DNA from: Marinicella marina
Lineage (GTDB): Bacteria; Pseudomonadota; Gammaproteobacteria; Xanthomonadales; Marinicellaceae
Reading direction: 5' to 3'
Assembly: GCF_030065545.1 (NCBI RefSeq)
Contig: NZ_JASJNC010000004.1
Span: 186,001-250,000 of the forward strand
Length of the DNA stretch: 64,000 bases
Shown here: piece by piece, positions 56,635 through 62,206 of the stretch
How the letters are laid out: every line of letters begins with the position of its first letter
Numbering within the stretch: position 1 is the stretch's first letter
Translations under genes and position numbers: made by a program
The notes under the pieces: generated by a model
Told to the model about the DNA's origin: nothing
Database searches by the model: none
Seen by the model: only the letters and a program-made list of their open reading frames with translations

Positions 56635-58638
56635 TTAACTTTCGGTGTCTTGCTCATCGTTGCGAGACAATTTCTTGATCATTTGAGTGATGGTGTCTTT
56701 ATCAAAACTCTTACCGTTACCCAAACTCATGACCTTAGCCACCGCAGCTTGTAAGATGTCGCTTTTACCAATGGCACCATCTACCGCTTTACCCACTGCC
56801 AACGAACTCATGAACTTCTCTAAGAAGTCACCATTGCCACCGACAATATCGATATTCGCTTCTTTTAAAGCCTCTGCCAGTACTTTGGCTTGGGTTTCAG
56901 CAATACCCGTATTGGCCTCAATCGCTTTCATGTTCTCAACATGCGACATGTCTAAGCCCATGCGAAACTCCTCATGTTCTCTGACCGTCTCATCCATGGT
57001 CGCCAGCGCCGCAAACTTCTCTTTCAAACCTCGTGCTTCTGCCGCATAGCGTTCTTCGATGGCTTGTGCTTCAGCCACTTTAATCTTCACTGCGACCATG
57101 GCTTGTTGTTCTTCACCTTGAGCATCCGCTTCTTTCACCCGCACATTGGCCATGCCTATATCCTCAGCACCGACCGCCTCTGCTTTGAATTTCTCTGCCA
57201 TCACAGCCGCTTCTGCCTCACCTTGTTTCTGATGAGCGGCGGCTTTGGCTTCTATGACTTTGGCTTCTGCCAAACCAGTGGCAGCCGCTTCCTCACGCAC
57301 ACCTTCAGCCAATCTGATTTTGGCATCGGCTTCTTTGGCTGCTGATTCACGTGCCGCCTCAGCCAGAGTGATGCGCTCACTGGCACGGTGTTTGGCTGTG
57401 GTTTCTTGTGCTTCGGCCGCTTTGATTTCCTTGATTAAATCTTGTTCTGCCAAAGCTTCAGCTGCAATCACCTGAGCTTGTTTGTTGCGTTTGGCTTCTT
57501 CCACCACCCGCAGTTCATTGATTTTTTCTTCTTGCTCAGCCACTGTTTTTTCTACCGCTATGCGTTCACGCACCACATCTGCAATGTTTTTCTTTTCAAC
57601 CTCAAGGTCTTTTTCTTTGTTGATTTCTTGCAGCGCCACTTCACGTTCACGGCCAACAATTTCTAACTGTCTAACCTTAGTGACTTTTTCTTCTTCGATT
57701 GCCACCGCACGCATGCGGTTATTGGCCGCCACTTCAACTTCTCGCTGTTTGTTTTCTTCCAGTACCATCAGTTCTTGATCGGTAGCAATCCTGGCTGTTT
57801 CTGCTTTCAGGCGTTCTTCACTTTCAATTTTTTCTTTTTCAGCTTCCTCGCGGGCTTTGACCGAAGCAATTTCGCGCATCTGCCTGGCCTCTGCATCGGC
57901 TTCAATGCGTTCCAACTCTAAAATTCGCTCCCTGGCTTCAACATCCCTTTTCTTGATTTTGGTTTCCTCTTCACGCTCAAACTCATTGGTGAGGATTTTT
58001 TGTTTCGCCGTTAACTCAGTGATTTTACGAATACCCTGGGCATCCAAGATGTTGTTCTCATCCAAAGACGAAATCGGCGTTTGCTCCAAATAGTCAATCG
58101 CCGCATCTTCCAACACATAACCATTCAAGTCTTTACCAATGACCATGATGATTTCATCCCTGAAGCGATCACGTTCTTCATACAACTCCTCAAACTCAAG
58201 TTTTTTACCCACAGTTTTTAAAGCTTCTGAGAACTTGGCACTGAATAACTCTTCTATGGTGGCTTGTTTAGATGCCCGCTCACAACCAATCGCTTGTGCC
58301 ACTTTCAGTACGTCTTCTTTGGTTTTATTAACTCGAACAAAGAAGGTTACCTTGATATCCGCCCTGATGTTGTCCTTACAAATCAATCCATCTTGAGCCC
58401 GACGATCAATCTCAATGGTCTTGAGTGATATGTTCATGAATTCCTTTTTATGAATAACTGGCCACACGGTGCGACCCGTAAAGGTCACTTCCGGTGTTTC
58501 TTTCATGGTGTTCACAATCATGGCCTGACCCTGCTCTACCTTTTGGTAGAACTTCATCACAATCAGGGCCAACCCGATGAGTGCCAACACCACCACCCCA
58601 GCATAGGTGGCTATGGCTATTAATAAGTCGCTATTCAT
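56635..58638 (-). CDS. yqiK: YqiK-type flotillin (SPFH) protein
   Basis: A 667-residue flotillin. One N-terminal membrane helix (about 7-29: IATYAGVVVLALIGLALIV) is followed by an SPFH domain (about 40-200: VEQGQAMIVNTMKETPEVTF, INISLKT-like segment, DIKVTFFVRVNKT, EELFSAKFSEALKTVG). A very long Ala/Glu/Lys coiled coil (about 220-570) carries many AEAQ/EAEAK-type repeats, and a globular tail ends the protein. Flotillins form membrane microdomain scaffolds. The domain order matches E. coli YqiK. AAAGGAG lies 9 nt before the ATG. A YqiJ-like gene precedes it by 96 bp, the same gene order as yqiJK of E. coli. Confidence 0.9.
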   Translation of the reverse strand: MNSDLLIAIATYAGVVVLALIGLALIVMKFYQKVEQGQAMIVNTMKETPEVTFTGRTVWPVIHKKEFMNISLKTIEIDRRAQDGLICKDNIRADIKVTFFVRVNKTKEDVLKVAQAIGCERASKQATIEELFSAKFSEALKTVGKKLEFEELYEERDRFRDEIIMVIGKDLNGYVLEDAAIDYLEQTPISSLDENNILDAQGIRKITELTAKQKILTNEFEREEETKIKKRDVEARERILELERIEADAEARQMREIASVKAREEAEKEKIESEERLKAETARIATDQELMVLEENKQREVEVAANNRMRAVAIEEEKVTKVRQLEIVGREREVALQEINKEKDLEVEKKNIADVVRERIAVEKTVAEQEEKINELRVVEEAKRNKQAQVIAAEALAEQDLIKEIKAAEAQETTAKHRASERITLAEAARESAAKEADAKIRLAEGVREEAAATGLAEAKVIEAKAAAHQKQGEAEAAVMAEKFKAEAVGAEDIGMANVRVKEADAQGEEQQAMVAVKIKVAEAQAIEERYAAEARGLKEKFAALATMDETVREHEEFRMGLDMSHVENMKAIEANTGIAETQAKVLAEALKEANIDIVGGNGDFLEKFMSSLAVGKAVDGAIGKSDILQAAVAKVMSLGNGKSFDKDTITQMIKKLSRNDEQDTES

Positions 58639-58734: not shown

Positions 58735-59433
58735 TTAATTTAATTCTTCTGCTTTGATGACCCAGTAACTGCCGTCTTCTTCATCGTATGATTTCAGTAT
58801 GACCAAATCACCTTTGGTGATGTTATCAGACACTTTGGCTCTGACATCAAACAGCATCCCTGCGCCACCATCTTGGTACTCTGCTTGGCCGAAGCTCTCA
58901 GTGACAGAGCCCGTTTTAACCAAACACTCACTGCCTATGAAAGAAACCTTGTTTCTGGCCGTGTACGACACAAAAGCACTTTTCAGAGGCCTGATGAATT
59001 GTGCCGTGACTGGTATGGCCAAAGCAAAACTGACCAATAACAAAGCCGCACCAACCAACCACTGTAACAGCGCCAAAGGAATCAGTGGCATAACCACTGA
59101 TGCCAAAATGTAACTGATCAACCAAGCCGAAGCCACCAAAATCGAGACCACCACAGTCACAGGCACACCAGTCAGACCCCATTTCAACATAAAGCCGGTA
59201 ATCCCTCTGAGACTTTCAGGGTCAAAATCAGGATCTACCGTAGCACCTACATCGGCATCTACATCAAGCTCAATATCTGCGTCAACATCAACATCAAGAT
59301 CGAAGTCAGCATCAAACATATCAATATCAACCGCACCTAACATCGCCAATAACCAGTAAACAATGATGATTGCCAGTAAAAAGGTAAACACAATCACAGG
59401 AAAACTCGTTATGTTTGTTAAAAAAATTTCCAT
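58735..59433 (-). CDS. yqiJ: YqiJ-like OB-fold membrane protein with Asp-rich loop
   Basis: A 232-residue protein of the YqiJ (NfeD-related) type. An N-terminal membrane helix (about 8-30) is followed by an extreme acidic loop (about 32-73) with roughly one Asp in every two residues (blocks such as DADFDLDVDVDADIEL). Two or three membrane helices follow (about 80-145), then an OB-fold (about 155-232: VSFIGSECLVKTGSVT, DVRAKVSDNITKGDLVILKS, WVIKAEEL). NfeD-like OB domains pair with SPFH proteins. The frame begins at a GTG (59436), but the ATG at 59433 has a GAGGAG at 5 nt and overlaps the previous stop by 1 nt. The acidic loop might bind calcium or a basic partner. Confidence 0.82.
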   Translation of the reverse strand: MEIFLTNITSFPVIVFTFLLAIIIVYWLLAMLGAVDIDMFDADFDLDVDVDADIELDVDADVGATVDPDFDPESLRGITGFMLKWGLTGVPVTVVVSILVASAWLISYILASVVMPLIPLALLQWLVGAALLLVSFALAIPVTAQFIRPLKSAFVSYTARNKVSFIGSECLVKTGSVTESFGQAEYQDGGAGMLFDVRAKVSDNITKGDLVILKSYDEEDGSYWVIKAEELN

Positions 59434-59774
59434 CACAGCTCCTCATCAATATTTTTGACGTGCTCAATCAGTTTTTCTGCAGCTCGCCTTTTGACCTCAA
59501 CAGGGTCATTGGTTTCTAATTCATACGCTTCGGCTAAAAAAGCCATGTCATCATCAGACAGTGAGATTGATAGACGCAGTCGTTTTGGTTTTCGCGACAC
59601 ACTCAGACCCAGAATTTGTCTGATTCTGTCAGACGGGTTGATGCTTCTGTCTAAAGCTTCTTTTCTGATCACATATTGGATTTTCTCACCCACATCGAAA
59701 GCCACCTGGGTGGCCTTCACCGCTTTCTTCTCCTTGGCCCATTTATTCAAGATTTGTTGTTTCTTATCAGTCAT
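59433..59774 (-). CDS. Small basic protein with ribbon-helix-helix-like profile
   Basis: A 113-residue protein. The first 60 residues are helical and Lys/Arg-rich (ILNKWAKEKKAVKATQ, IRQILGL). The C-terminal half reads like a ribbon-helix-helix: a strand (KRLRLSISLS), helix A (DDDMAFLAEAYEL), a turn, and helix B (VEVKRRAAEKLIEHV). If so it could bind DNA and be the regulator of this locus, but it could also be a structural adaptor of the flotillin complex. The gene is preceded by a 131-bp gap, in which a 13-bp sequence is repeated in tandem 12 nt from the ATG. It overlaps the YqiJ-like gene start. No family is recognised with confidence. Confidence 0.7.
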   Translation of the reverse strand: MTDKKQQILNKWAKEKKAVKATQVAFDVGEKIQYVIRKEALDRSINPSDRIRQILGLSVSRKPKRLRLSISLSDDDMAFLAEAYELETNDPVEVKRRAAEKLIEHVKNIDEEL

Positions 59775-59905: not shown

Positions 59906-60616
59906 TCATTCCTTGTCAATGATCCTTTTCAACACATCTGCTGCATCTTCCGTGACTTGTTCAGAAACTTCATTCTGATGTTTTTCGGTCAACACTGGCT
60001 TGCGCTCATTAACCATTGCATCATCCACTTCATATTGTTCATCAAGGCTTTGCTGTTTTCTGCGTATCCTTTCCAAGGATCGTTTGGCAGATAACATTTT
60101 GCTGTCGGCTTGGTTGAAGTTTTTGGTAATGACTTCAGTCGCCTTTTGGATGTCCGCAGTGGTTTGTACCATTGCCACCTGCCGTTCCAGTTCTTTCAAT
60201 GAACGTTCGGCATTTTCCATTTGTCGAGTCAAATGACCTAAGTGCAGTTCATGTGACTTGAGTATGCCCGCCTCGGCTGCCAGGTCTTGTTCCAGTTCAA
60301 CCATTTCAGTGGCCAAATCAAAAGCCAATATTTCATCATTTTGACTCAAAGCCTTAATGATGCGCTGCTCATGCTCATCAACTTGCGACTTCATCAACTT
60401 AACTTTTCTAGAGCATTGTGATTCTTTGGCCAATGCGTCGCTGATGGCATGTTTGGCACTGCTTAAATTAACTTTGGCCACTTCAATTTGTTTTTCGTAT
60501 ATTTTATTACCAGTTGAATCCATAACCGCTTCACTCAATGCCCTGGAATCATCTCTGATGACTTGAATGATCTTATCTAAGATGTTCATTCCTGCACGTT
60601 TCTTATCACCACTCAT
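59906..60616 (-). CDS. PspA/IM30 family protein, YjfJ type
   Basis: A 236-residue helical protein of the PspA/IM30/ESCRT-III superfamily: almost wholly coiled coil, with an N-terminal amphipathic-looking segment (MNILDKIIQVIRDD), the long helices at about 35-190 (AKHAISDALAKESQCSRKVKLM, LAFDLATEMVELEQDLAAEAGIL), and a tail that ends in KRIIDKE. The match is to E. coli YjfJ rather than to PspA itself. PspA-type proteins polymerise on damaged membranes. The ATG overlaps the YjfI stop (ATGA), so the two are coupled as in the E. coli yjfIJ order. Confidence 0.85.
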   Translation of the reverse strand: MSGDKKRAGMNILDKIIQVIRDDSRALSEAVMDSTGNKIYEKQIEVAKVNLSSAKHAISDALAKESQCSRKVKLMKSQVDEHEQRIIKALSQNDEILAFDLATEMVELEQDLAAEAGILKSHELHLGHLTRQMENAERSLKELERQVAMVQTTADIQKATEVITKNFNQADSKMLSAKRSLERIRRKQQSLDEQYEVDDAMVNERKPVLTEKHQNEVSEQVTEDAADVLKRIIDKE

Positions 60617-61020
60617 TTTAAGAAGTCCTCCATGGCCGATACCACATCAACAGCGTTTTCGTTCAACATCACCACCTCTTCCACCACTTTATCTAACTCA
60701 GAACTGACCGATAAAGCACCGAAAAGCACATACCGATCGCCTACCCTGGCGTAAGATGACAATGGTATTGAAATGCTGGTATCAAGCATCATTTCTAACA
60801 TCTCAGTGCGCCTGTCTGCTCTGATTTCATCCTCGGTCCATAAATAGATGATACAAATGATTTGAAATTGAGTTTGCGTAATAAACACCGGAAAACCATC
60901 AAACCCATTGATCTCAACCTGTAACACTTCTACTTCCCCAGTGATTCTTTGGCAATCAAAAGTAAAGCCTTCCGTGGTTCTGTGTTGAGATAATTTAATG
61001 GCAAAATCCTCTGTGTTCAT
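60613..61020 (-). CDS. yjfI: YjfI (DUF2170) family protein
   Basis: A 135-residue protein of the DUF2170 family (YjfI in E. coli): VEVLQVEINGFDGFPVFI, FQIICIIYLWTEDEI, LLDTSISIPLSSYA-like segment and VLFGALSVSSELDKVVEEVVML. DUF2170 proteins nearly always accompany YjfJ/PspA homologues and are thought to assist in membrane stress. Good ribosome-binding site (AAGGAG) 10 nt before the ATG. It is the first gene of the operon driven by the palindrome-flanked promoter at 61056-61088; it is coupled to the PspA homologue through the ATGA overlap. Confidence 0.88.
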   Translation of the reverse strand: MNTEDFAIKLSQHRTTEGFTFDCQRITGEVEVLQVEINGFDGFPVFITQTQFQIICIIYLWTEDEIRADRRTEMLEMMLDTSISIPLSSYARVGDRYVLFGALSVSSELDKVVEEVVMLNENAVDVVSAMEDFLK

Positions 61021-61055
61021 ATCGTTTTTCTCTCCTTCATCTGCTCAATGCATGA

Positions 61056-61088
61056 TGACATAATATGTCACAATGACATAATATGTCA
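61056..61088 (-). promoter_or_regulatory. Promoter with twin 15-bp palindromic operators
   Basis: The sequence TGACATAATATGTCA occurs twice (61056-61070 and 61074-61088). Each copy is a perfect 7-bp inverted repeat around one central base, and the centres are 18 bp apart. Read on the minus strand, the distal copy supplies a consensus -35 (TTGACA, 61087-61082) and the proximal copy a -10 (TATTAT, 61065-61060) with an 18-bp spacer. The start would be about 33 nt before the yjfI ATG. A protein bound to both sites would block polymerase, so a repressor operator is the simplest reading. The protein is not known. Confidence 0.75.
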
Positions 61089-61219
61089 ATGTGCATGAAG
61101 TCACATATGAACTGTATTTGACATCTAGGCAGGTATGAAAATGAATTAAATAAGGGGCTTATATGATTGTAAAACTTAACAATAAATAAAAAAATTACCC
61201 GAAAAGTAAGTGGCTGAAA

Positions 61220-62206
61220 TTAATTTTGATTATTTTCTGGTTCAATTTCATGCAGCGCTGCGCTTGAGTCATCACTGACCTGCTGCATGTGTTCAAGGGT
61301 CTGATCAATCAATACTTTGGCTTGTTCTAATTTGGCCGTATCGATTCTGAAGTGCTCGGCATGCTTTTGCTGGCGTTGATTGTTGTTGGCCATCGCCACA
61401 CCAGCTGCCACATCCAGAGCGGCTGTGGTGGTCATCACCGTTTGGTCAATATCACGGATCAAGCTTTGGTTTTGTTTGATGATCAATTCTACGGTCATCA
61501 TCGCTTGTCTGGCGATCAAGGATTGTTGTTGTAGGTCGATCAAGCGTTGTTGCACTGGGCCAAGTAATTCATCATCAATGACCGCTAAGTGATGGGCACT
61601 GATTGTTAAGGTATCTGCGCTGCGTAGTTTGAGTTGTTGTTCGAAGACAGTCACGAAATCAAAGCTTTGGGTCAGTTTTTGCAAACCCGCCATCAACGCT
61701 TCATGATCGCCGTTGAGAATCTGATTGTCGCGCATCAACTGCCGCTTTTCAGCATTTAACTGTTCCACCAATCCAACCATCACTTTGCGTTTTTCCGGGA
61801 AATTATCCAACCACATTTGATAAGCTGATTCTCGCCAAGAAAACAACAACAAAAAACGTTCCCTCCAGCTCAATCTGCGTTGAGGAGGTTGCATGTCAGC
61901 CACCTGTTGCGAAAGTTGAGCCAGTAACTTTGATACCTTACCACCGGCATCGGTATCTGCCATCAATTGTTGCAAAGGATGAATCAAGCGCTTATTCAAC
62001 TGCCAATAAGCCGCCTGCTCCTCTGCCCCCAACTCAAATAAGGCATTCCTGACTTGATCAACCAACTGTAAATCATTGAAATCCATCGCCAGCACCCAAT
62101 CAACCAATTGATCAGCAGCTTTTTCTATGTATGCCTCAGACTCATGACTGATCATTGCATGATCAAGTGTGCTTAATTGTTTAAAAGTTGCCAGTGCAGC
62201 CTTCAT
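61220..62206 (-). CDS. Divergent TelA-like (toxic-anion resistance) protein
   Basis: A 328-residue cytosolic helical protein. The central and C-terminal part resembles TelA/KlaA of tellurite resistance loci: YQMWLDNFPEKRKVMVGLVEQL, the following DNQILNGDHEALMAGL, the LQQQSLIARQAMMTVELI block, and NQSLIRDIDQTVMTTTAAL with ALDVAAGVAMANNN. The N-terminal 110 residues are not recognised. TelA itself is of unknown biochemistry, often found with ter genes. It lies 200 bp upstream of yjfI on the same strand; whether it shares a transcript with the others is unclear because the operator-bearing promoter lies between. The call is by pattern and should be treated as moderate. Confidence 0.65.
   Translation of the reverse strand: MKAALATFKQLSTLDHAMISHESEAYIEKAADQLVDWVLAMDFNDLQLVDQVRNALFELGAEEQAAYWQLNKRLIHPLQQLMADTDAGGKVSKLLAQLSQQVADMQPPQRRLSWRERFLLLFSWRESAYQMWLDNFPEKRKVMVGLVEQLNAEKRQLMRDNQILNGDHEALMAGLQKLTQSFDFVTVFEQQLKLRSADTLTISAHHLAVIDDELLGPVQQRLIDLQQQSLIARQAMMTVELIIKQNQSLIRDIDQTVMTTTAALDVAAGVAMANNNQRQQKHAEHFRIDTAKLEQAKVLIDQTLEHMQQVSDDSSAALHEIEPENNQN

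Follow-up and report, generated by a model that had tools for sequence, protein, structure and literature searches.

Two palindromes on the promoter of a DUF2170-pspA-flotillin operon of Marinicella marina: a conserved predicted operator with a candidate tandem ribbon-helix-helix regulator

The window (the whole stretch of DNA that was analysed, 64,000 nucleotides) contains a minus-strand operon that starts with yjfI and has two identical 15-bp palindromes, TGACATAATATGTCA, on its promoter. Are these an operator, which protein would bind to it, and which genes are controlled? We give a probability of roughly 0.78 to the following reading. The palindromes are the double operator of the operon DUF2170-pspA-ORF113-yqiJK, and the product of the third gene (ORF113) is the binder and an autorepressor, with a wider membrane-integrity regulon in relatives.

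The operon and its promoter

In this Marinicella-type genome, the gene order is DUF2170 (yjfI)-pspA-ORF113-yqiJ-yqiK. The features are as follows:

61074-61088, minus strand: distal operator copy TGACATATTATGTCA, which forms the -35 element TTGACA together with the T at 61089
61056-61070, minus strand: proximal operator copy TGACATATTATGTCA, which holds the -10 element TATTAT (61065-61060)
61060-61089, minus strand: predicted sigma-70 type promoter TTGACA-18-TATTAT, matching the consensus at 11 of 12 positions
60613-61020, minus strand: DUF2170/YjfI (BacA) family gene, first in the operon (PF09938, E 2.5e-32)
59906-60616, minus strand: PspA/IM30 family gene (PF04012)
59433-59774, minus strand: ORF113, third in the operon, predicted single-chain tandem ribbon-helix-helix (RHH) protein and candidate operator-binding autoregulator
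58735-59436, minus strand: YqiJ-like membrane protein (without a Pfam match), identified from its position and its homology to YqiJ-YqiK pairs
56635-58638, minus strand: YqiK-type flotillin (SPFH coiled-coil membrane protein), identified from its sequence and its neighbours (no Pfam match at E 1e-3)

A PspA/IM30 homologue adjoins DUF2170, the arrangement by which a phage shock (PSP) system of the DUF2170-PspA type is recognized. About 130 bp separate the operator from the end of a TelA-family gene (61220-62206, minus strand), which lies upstream and also neighbours the operon in several relatives.

The sequence-only reading had placed two perfect palindromes on the promoter, and both are indeed perfect and lie where it had put them. 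Its promoter elements, 18 bp apart, are also confirmed, with TTGACA (61089-61084) in the distal and TATTAT in the proximal copy. The start is predicted near 61053, about 7 nt 3' of the -10 element, which leaves the 33-nt leader that it had described, and the AAGGAG ribosome-binding site fits the ATG at 61020. It had considered such a pair improbable by chance. Among the nine odd palindromes of 15 bp in the window, only TGACATAATATGTCA is repeated exactly within 60 bp, and 60 Markov-simulated windows yielded no repeated pair of this kind. The genome-wide search that it had proposed found exact copies of TGACATAATATGTCA only at these two positions in the 3.46-Mb genome.

Control of this promoter by sigma-54 was rejected, as the -24/-12 element TGGCAC-N5-TTGC has no match with up to two mismatches between 61020 and 61667. 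A CRP-like sequence, TGTGACTTCATGCACA (61090-61105, minus strand), abuts the -35 element. It is kept across genus g1 as TGTGACTNNATGCACA and is not found in g3. It could be the site of a second regulator.

Conservation of the operator

An ORF113 alignment was scanned against genome contigs, which yielded 80 loci, including ones from Shewanella, Colwellia, Catenovulum, Thalassotalea and Zooshikella. Of these, 77 have enough upstream DNA, and GACATA-W-TATGTC occurs upstream of the operon in all 77 (155 sites), with none elsewhere in the approximately 8 kb around each locus. Six scrambled palindromes gave 0-5 sites over the same loci. The 13-bp core is nearly invariant among sites that were picked with up to one mismatch, while the flanks vary. 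The spacing of the copies depends on the clade and is 15, 17, 18, 23-24 or 31-40 bp. In genus g1 it is 18 bp, and in g3 it is 17 or 18 and 23-24 bp, with three copies in some genomes. Because the core is constant while its placement shifts, we interpret the palindromes as an operator rather than as a conserved promoter block.

For the close relatives (61 genomes from the genus, family and order), the operator was detected in all 17 testable genomes with ORF113, and the operator pair in none of the 42 without it. The sequence-only reading had held that absence of the repeats from close relatives would show that they are not an operator. The opposite was observed, and all relatives that have the operon and its upstream DNA keep two or three copies. 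Judged from this conservation, the two palindromes are a conserved operator. A chance repeat in an AT-rich, promoter-like sequence can be practically dismissed. TTGACA and TATTAT are promoter elements themselves, so that the motif is partly expected, but the palindrome is kept at shifting positions in 77 loci, with spacings that are not those of a promoter, and it recurs before pspA, SPFH, htpX and nhaA genes (see below). The comparative data, like the simulated windows, already contradict chance.

The placement bears on the type of control. One operator copy provides the -35 element TTGACA in 73 of the 77 loci. In Colwellia-type promoters this is the first copy, and the second follows about 35 bp further on, near the expected start. 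In families f11 and f12 (15-bp spacing), the proximal copy makes the -35 element and the other lies upstream of it. The latter arrangement would suit an activator platform, with ORF113 recruiting the polymerase rather than blocking it. We consider this quite improbable, since one copy sits on the -35 element nearly everywhere, with the second on the -10 element or near +1 in most clades, and since hexamers near consensus also fit repression. An operator that covers the -35 element and either the -10 element or the start points to repression.

Co-occurrence of operator and ORF113

In a class-level survey of 276 gammaproteobacterial genomes, ORF113 was detected in 12, all of which have DUF2170, while ten more have DUF2170 alone. 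ORF113 is almost never found without DUF2170. The exact operator is present at the DUF2170 promoter in 8 of the 12 genomes with ORF113 and in none of the ten without (p=0.0017), and an exact site anywhere in the genome occurs in 8/12 versus 8/264 (p=8e-9). The remaining four ORF113 genomes (G124, G239, G264, G309) carry a variant operator at DUF2170. Thus, the operator or its variant is found at the DUF2170 operon in all 12 ORF113 genomes. Among DUF2170 genomes without an ORF113 match, only G327 has the variant, and its contig breaks off close to the expected beginning of ORF113. At E. coli yjfI, both the operator and ORF113 are absent. In G309, ORF113 is encoded on another large contig, far from DUF2170, and the variant operator still precedes DUF2170, which, as far as gene arrangement tells, fits a trans-acting factor. 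As the palindrome is almost confined to genomes with ORF113, this protein is probably the controlling switch.

The variant, CCCCATA-N-TATGTC, was found upstream of DUF2170 in four ORF113 genomes and in G327 (L191, L192, L193, L195, L273). It is asymmetric and always has the same orientation relative to transcription. ORF113 is readable in four of the genomes with the variant, and there its first RHH strand motif reads QLAFEF or QIAFEL instead of QVAFD, while the second (RPRLT) is unchanged. This is only a hint, as G234 and G328 also have E in the first-strand motif, yet have a normal operator. In G219, degenerate copies are found at the ORF113-linked DUF2170 and good copies at a second DUF2170.

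ORF113 as candidate binder

The closest named homologues of ORF113 are from Marinicella species. No Pfam, NCBIfam or PDB sequence match names the protein, and its weak Pfam and NCBIfam matches include no RHH family. Curated family models often fail to detect divergent RHH proteins. A structure model based on 57 homologues (mean pLDDT 80) has two beta-alpha-alpha units in one chain (E22-25, H30-42, H47-55, followed by E69-72, H74-83, H91-112); the strands were not seen in an earlier model from 17 sequences. When the model was aligned with VIA-align, the top eight rows were of the RHH type, with middling Z scores of 5.2-7.5 (below 8), and the next row had 3.9. These matches are F-plasmid relaxosome chains, which we take to be TraY, a permuted single-chain Arc, AvtR and DndE. 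Foldseek gave weak matches, with E above 0.1. ORF113 is modelled as a single-chain, TraY-like tandem RHH protein.

It is unlikely, in our view, that the operator is real and its binder is encoded elsewhere, with ORF113 having another role in the operon. The binder role of ORF113 is predicted for a protein that has no annotated DNA-binding domain in Pfam or NCBIfam and that nearly always accompanies DUF2170, so that, in principle, the partner might be a different gene of the same operon. However, DUF2170-PspA systems without ORF113 are devoid of the operator, the operator tracks ORF113 closely in the 276 class-level and the 61 close genomes, including the unlinked case of G309, and the protein models as a tandem RHH protein.

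Further sites and the predicted regulon

In 39 ORF113 genomes, a genome-wide search returned 174 exact sites, versus three for the reversed control. Extra copies, in Colwellia, Catenovulum, Thalassotalea and others, precede classical pspA, SPFH/flotillin-NfeD, htpX, nhaA, spermidine-synthase and YidC-like genes. We retrieved 40 site contexts, from the genomes listed first rather than at random; two are the operon itself. Membrane-homeostasis genes lie downstream of 33 of the 38 extra sites. Genes were labelled by Pfam for one representative per class and by BLAST or N-terminal similarity for the rest:

SPFH/flotillin, NfeD or YqiJK genes: 14 of 38 extra sites
classical pspA: 6 of 38
htpX (M48): 4 of 38
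nhaA: 4 of 38, one followed by an SPFH gene
lipoprotein-DUF350(-spermidine synthase): 3 of 38
YidC-like (PF02096), Pmp3 and carbonic anhydrase genes: one site each of 38
gene context without a clear class: 4 of 38

Within one genome, G181, sites precede the DUF2170 operon as well as classical pspA, SPFH loci, YqiJK and a DUF350-spermidine synthase operon. In the Marinicella genome no other target was seen, and the two-mismatch sites that were retrieved are not near pspA- or SPFH-type genes; the regulon claim therefore rests on the relatives.

Two further candidates were discarded. A one-mismatch site (G000:C2:4041, L003) had been a possible second target, but it sits on the 3' side of a lipocalin gene and is also present in G014, a genome without ORF113. 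A match in G028 coincides with the start codon of a gene resembling that for ribosomal protein L25. The near-palindrome 3' of the lipocalin gene, TGACAAAATATGTCA (L003:1501-1515, L063:4071-4085), is conserved and apparently unrelated. In a Colwellia genome, the operator and nhaA (L237:305-1519) are directly followed by an SPFH gene (2-304), and a functional link of this Na+/H+ antiporter with SPFH proteins is possible. In L239, L242, L244, L260 and L180, the operator and classical pspA are separated by a gene for a secreted protein of about 100 residues with no assigned family.

The sequence-only reading had proposed a promoter-overlapping operator without a known name, and had named neither ORF113 as its likely binder nor the wider regulon. 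Its proposal is supported at the level of sequence: the palindrome is conserved across families, co-occurs with ORF113 and recurs before functionally related genes.

Proposed mechanism

ORF113 bound to both copies would cover the -35 and -10 elements and exclude RNA polymerase. The operon would be repressed by ORF113 and freed under membrane stress; that ORF113 is encoded inside the operon suggests autoregulation. As with met boxes and omega heptads, the GACATA half-sites, about 8 bp apart, would fit one RHH pair each, from which we infer two ORF113 chains per palindrome. A simple symmetric dimer does not account for the asymmetric variant. In P. aeruginosa, the DUF2170 protein BacA reportedly has a negative effect on its own operon (PMC10948618); DUF2170 or PspA may therefore pass the stress signal to ORF113.

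In other marine gammaproteobacteria, the predicted ORF113-operator pair would govern a wider membrane-integrity regulon, with classical pspA, SPFH/flotillin-NfeD, htpX, nhaA, lipoprotein-DUF350-spermidine synthase and a YidC-like insertase as members. We tentatively propose, at somewhat less than even odds, that a tandem-RHH repressor jointly controls PspA, SPFH/flotillin-NfeD, HtpX, NhaA and spermidine synthase and is freed when DUF2170 or PspA engages the damaged membrane. This would link PspA, flotillins, HtpX, NhaA and polyamine-type enzymes in a single predicted response in many marine genera. How most bacteria turn on their DUF2170-PspA and flotillin/SPFH systems is the wider question on which it bears. 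The 13-bp operator, the candidate regulator and the list of targets make the proposal directly testable.

Comparison with known systems

The autoregulatory RHH repressors Arc, MetJ, CopG and omega bind to short repeated sites over their own promoters. According to its model, ORF113 resembles them as a small beta-alpha-alpha protein, with repeated sites on its own promoter, and resembles TraY and engineered single-chain Arc in having two RHH units per chain. It differs from these families in the lack of a detectable sequence match, in its operator, in being encoded among membrane-stress genes and in its predicted membrane-stress targets.

The DUF2170-PspA core is common to this operon, to E. 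coli yjfIJKL and to the P. aeruginosa bac operon, and YqiJ-flotillin or spermidine-synthase partners are common to known DUF2170-PspA PSP systems and the loci described here. From gene neighbourhoods, an RHH transcription factor was described as the last gene of some DUF2170-PspA operons (Ravi et al. 2024, PMC11237479); the accessible text of that paper gives no operator or regulon for such a gene. In the open-access papers that were searched, the motif string occurs in one unrelated plant paper and in none on bacteria, and no such operator or regulon is described. That a membrane-integrity regulon under an ORF113-type repressor is previously undescribed is conceivable, though we would not wager on it.

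The bac operon was assigned a sigma-54 promoter (PMC10948618), whereas none is seen here. PspF with sigma-54 acts on pspABC and is, as predicted for ORF113, a dedicated regulator of a PspA gene. However, PspF activates a -24/-12 promoter, while the promoter described here is of the sigma-70 type with overlapping palindromes. In B. subtilis, sigma-W controls pspA-ydjGHI, floA and floT (PMC8581546), so that PspA and SPFH/flotillin proteins are controlled together, as is predicted here, but sigma-W is an alternative sigma factor with an unrelated DNA site, and the regulator predicted here is an RHH repressor. If the proposal is true, the ORF113 regulon would be a counterpart of PspF and sigma-W that is built on another principle.
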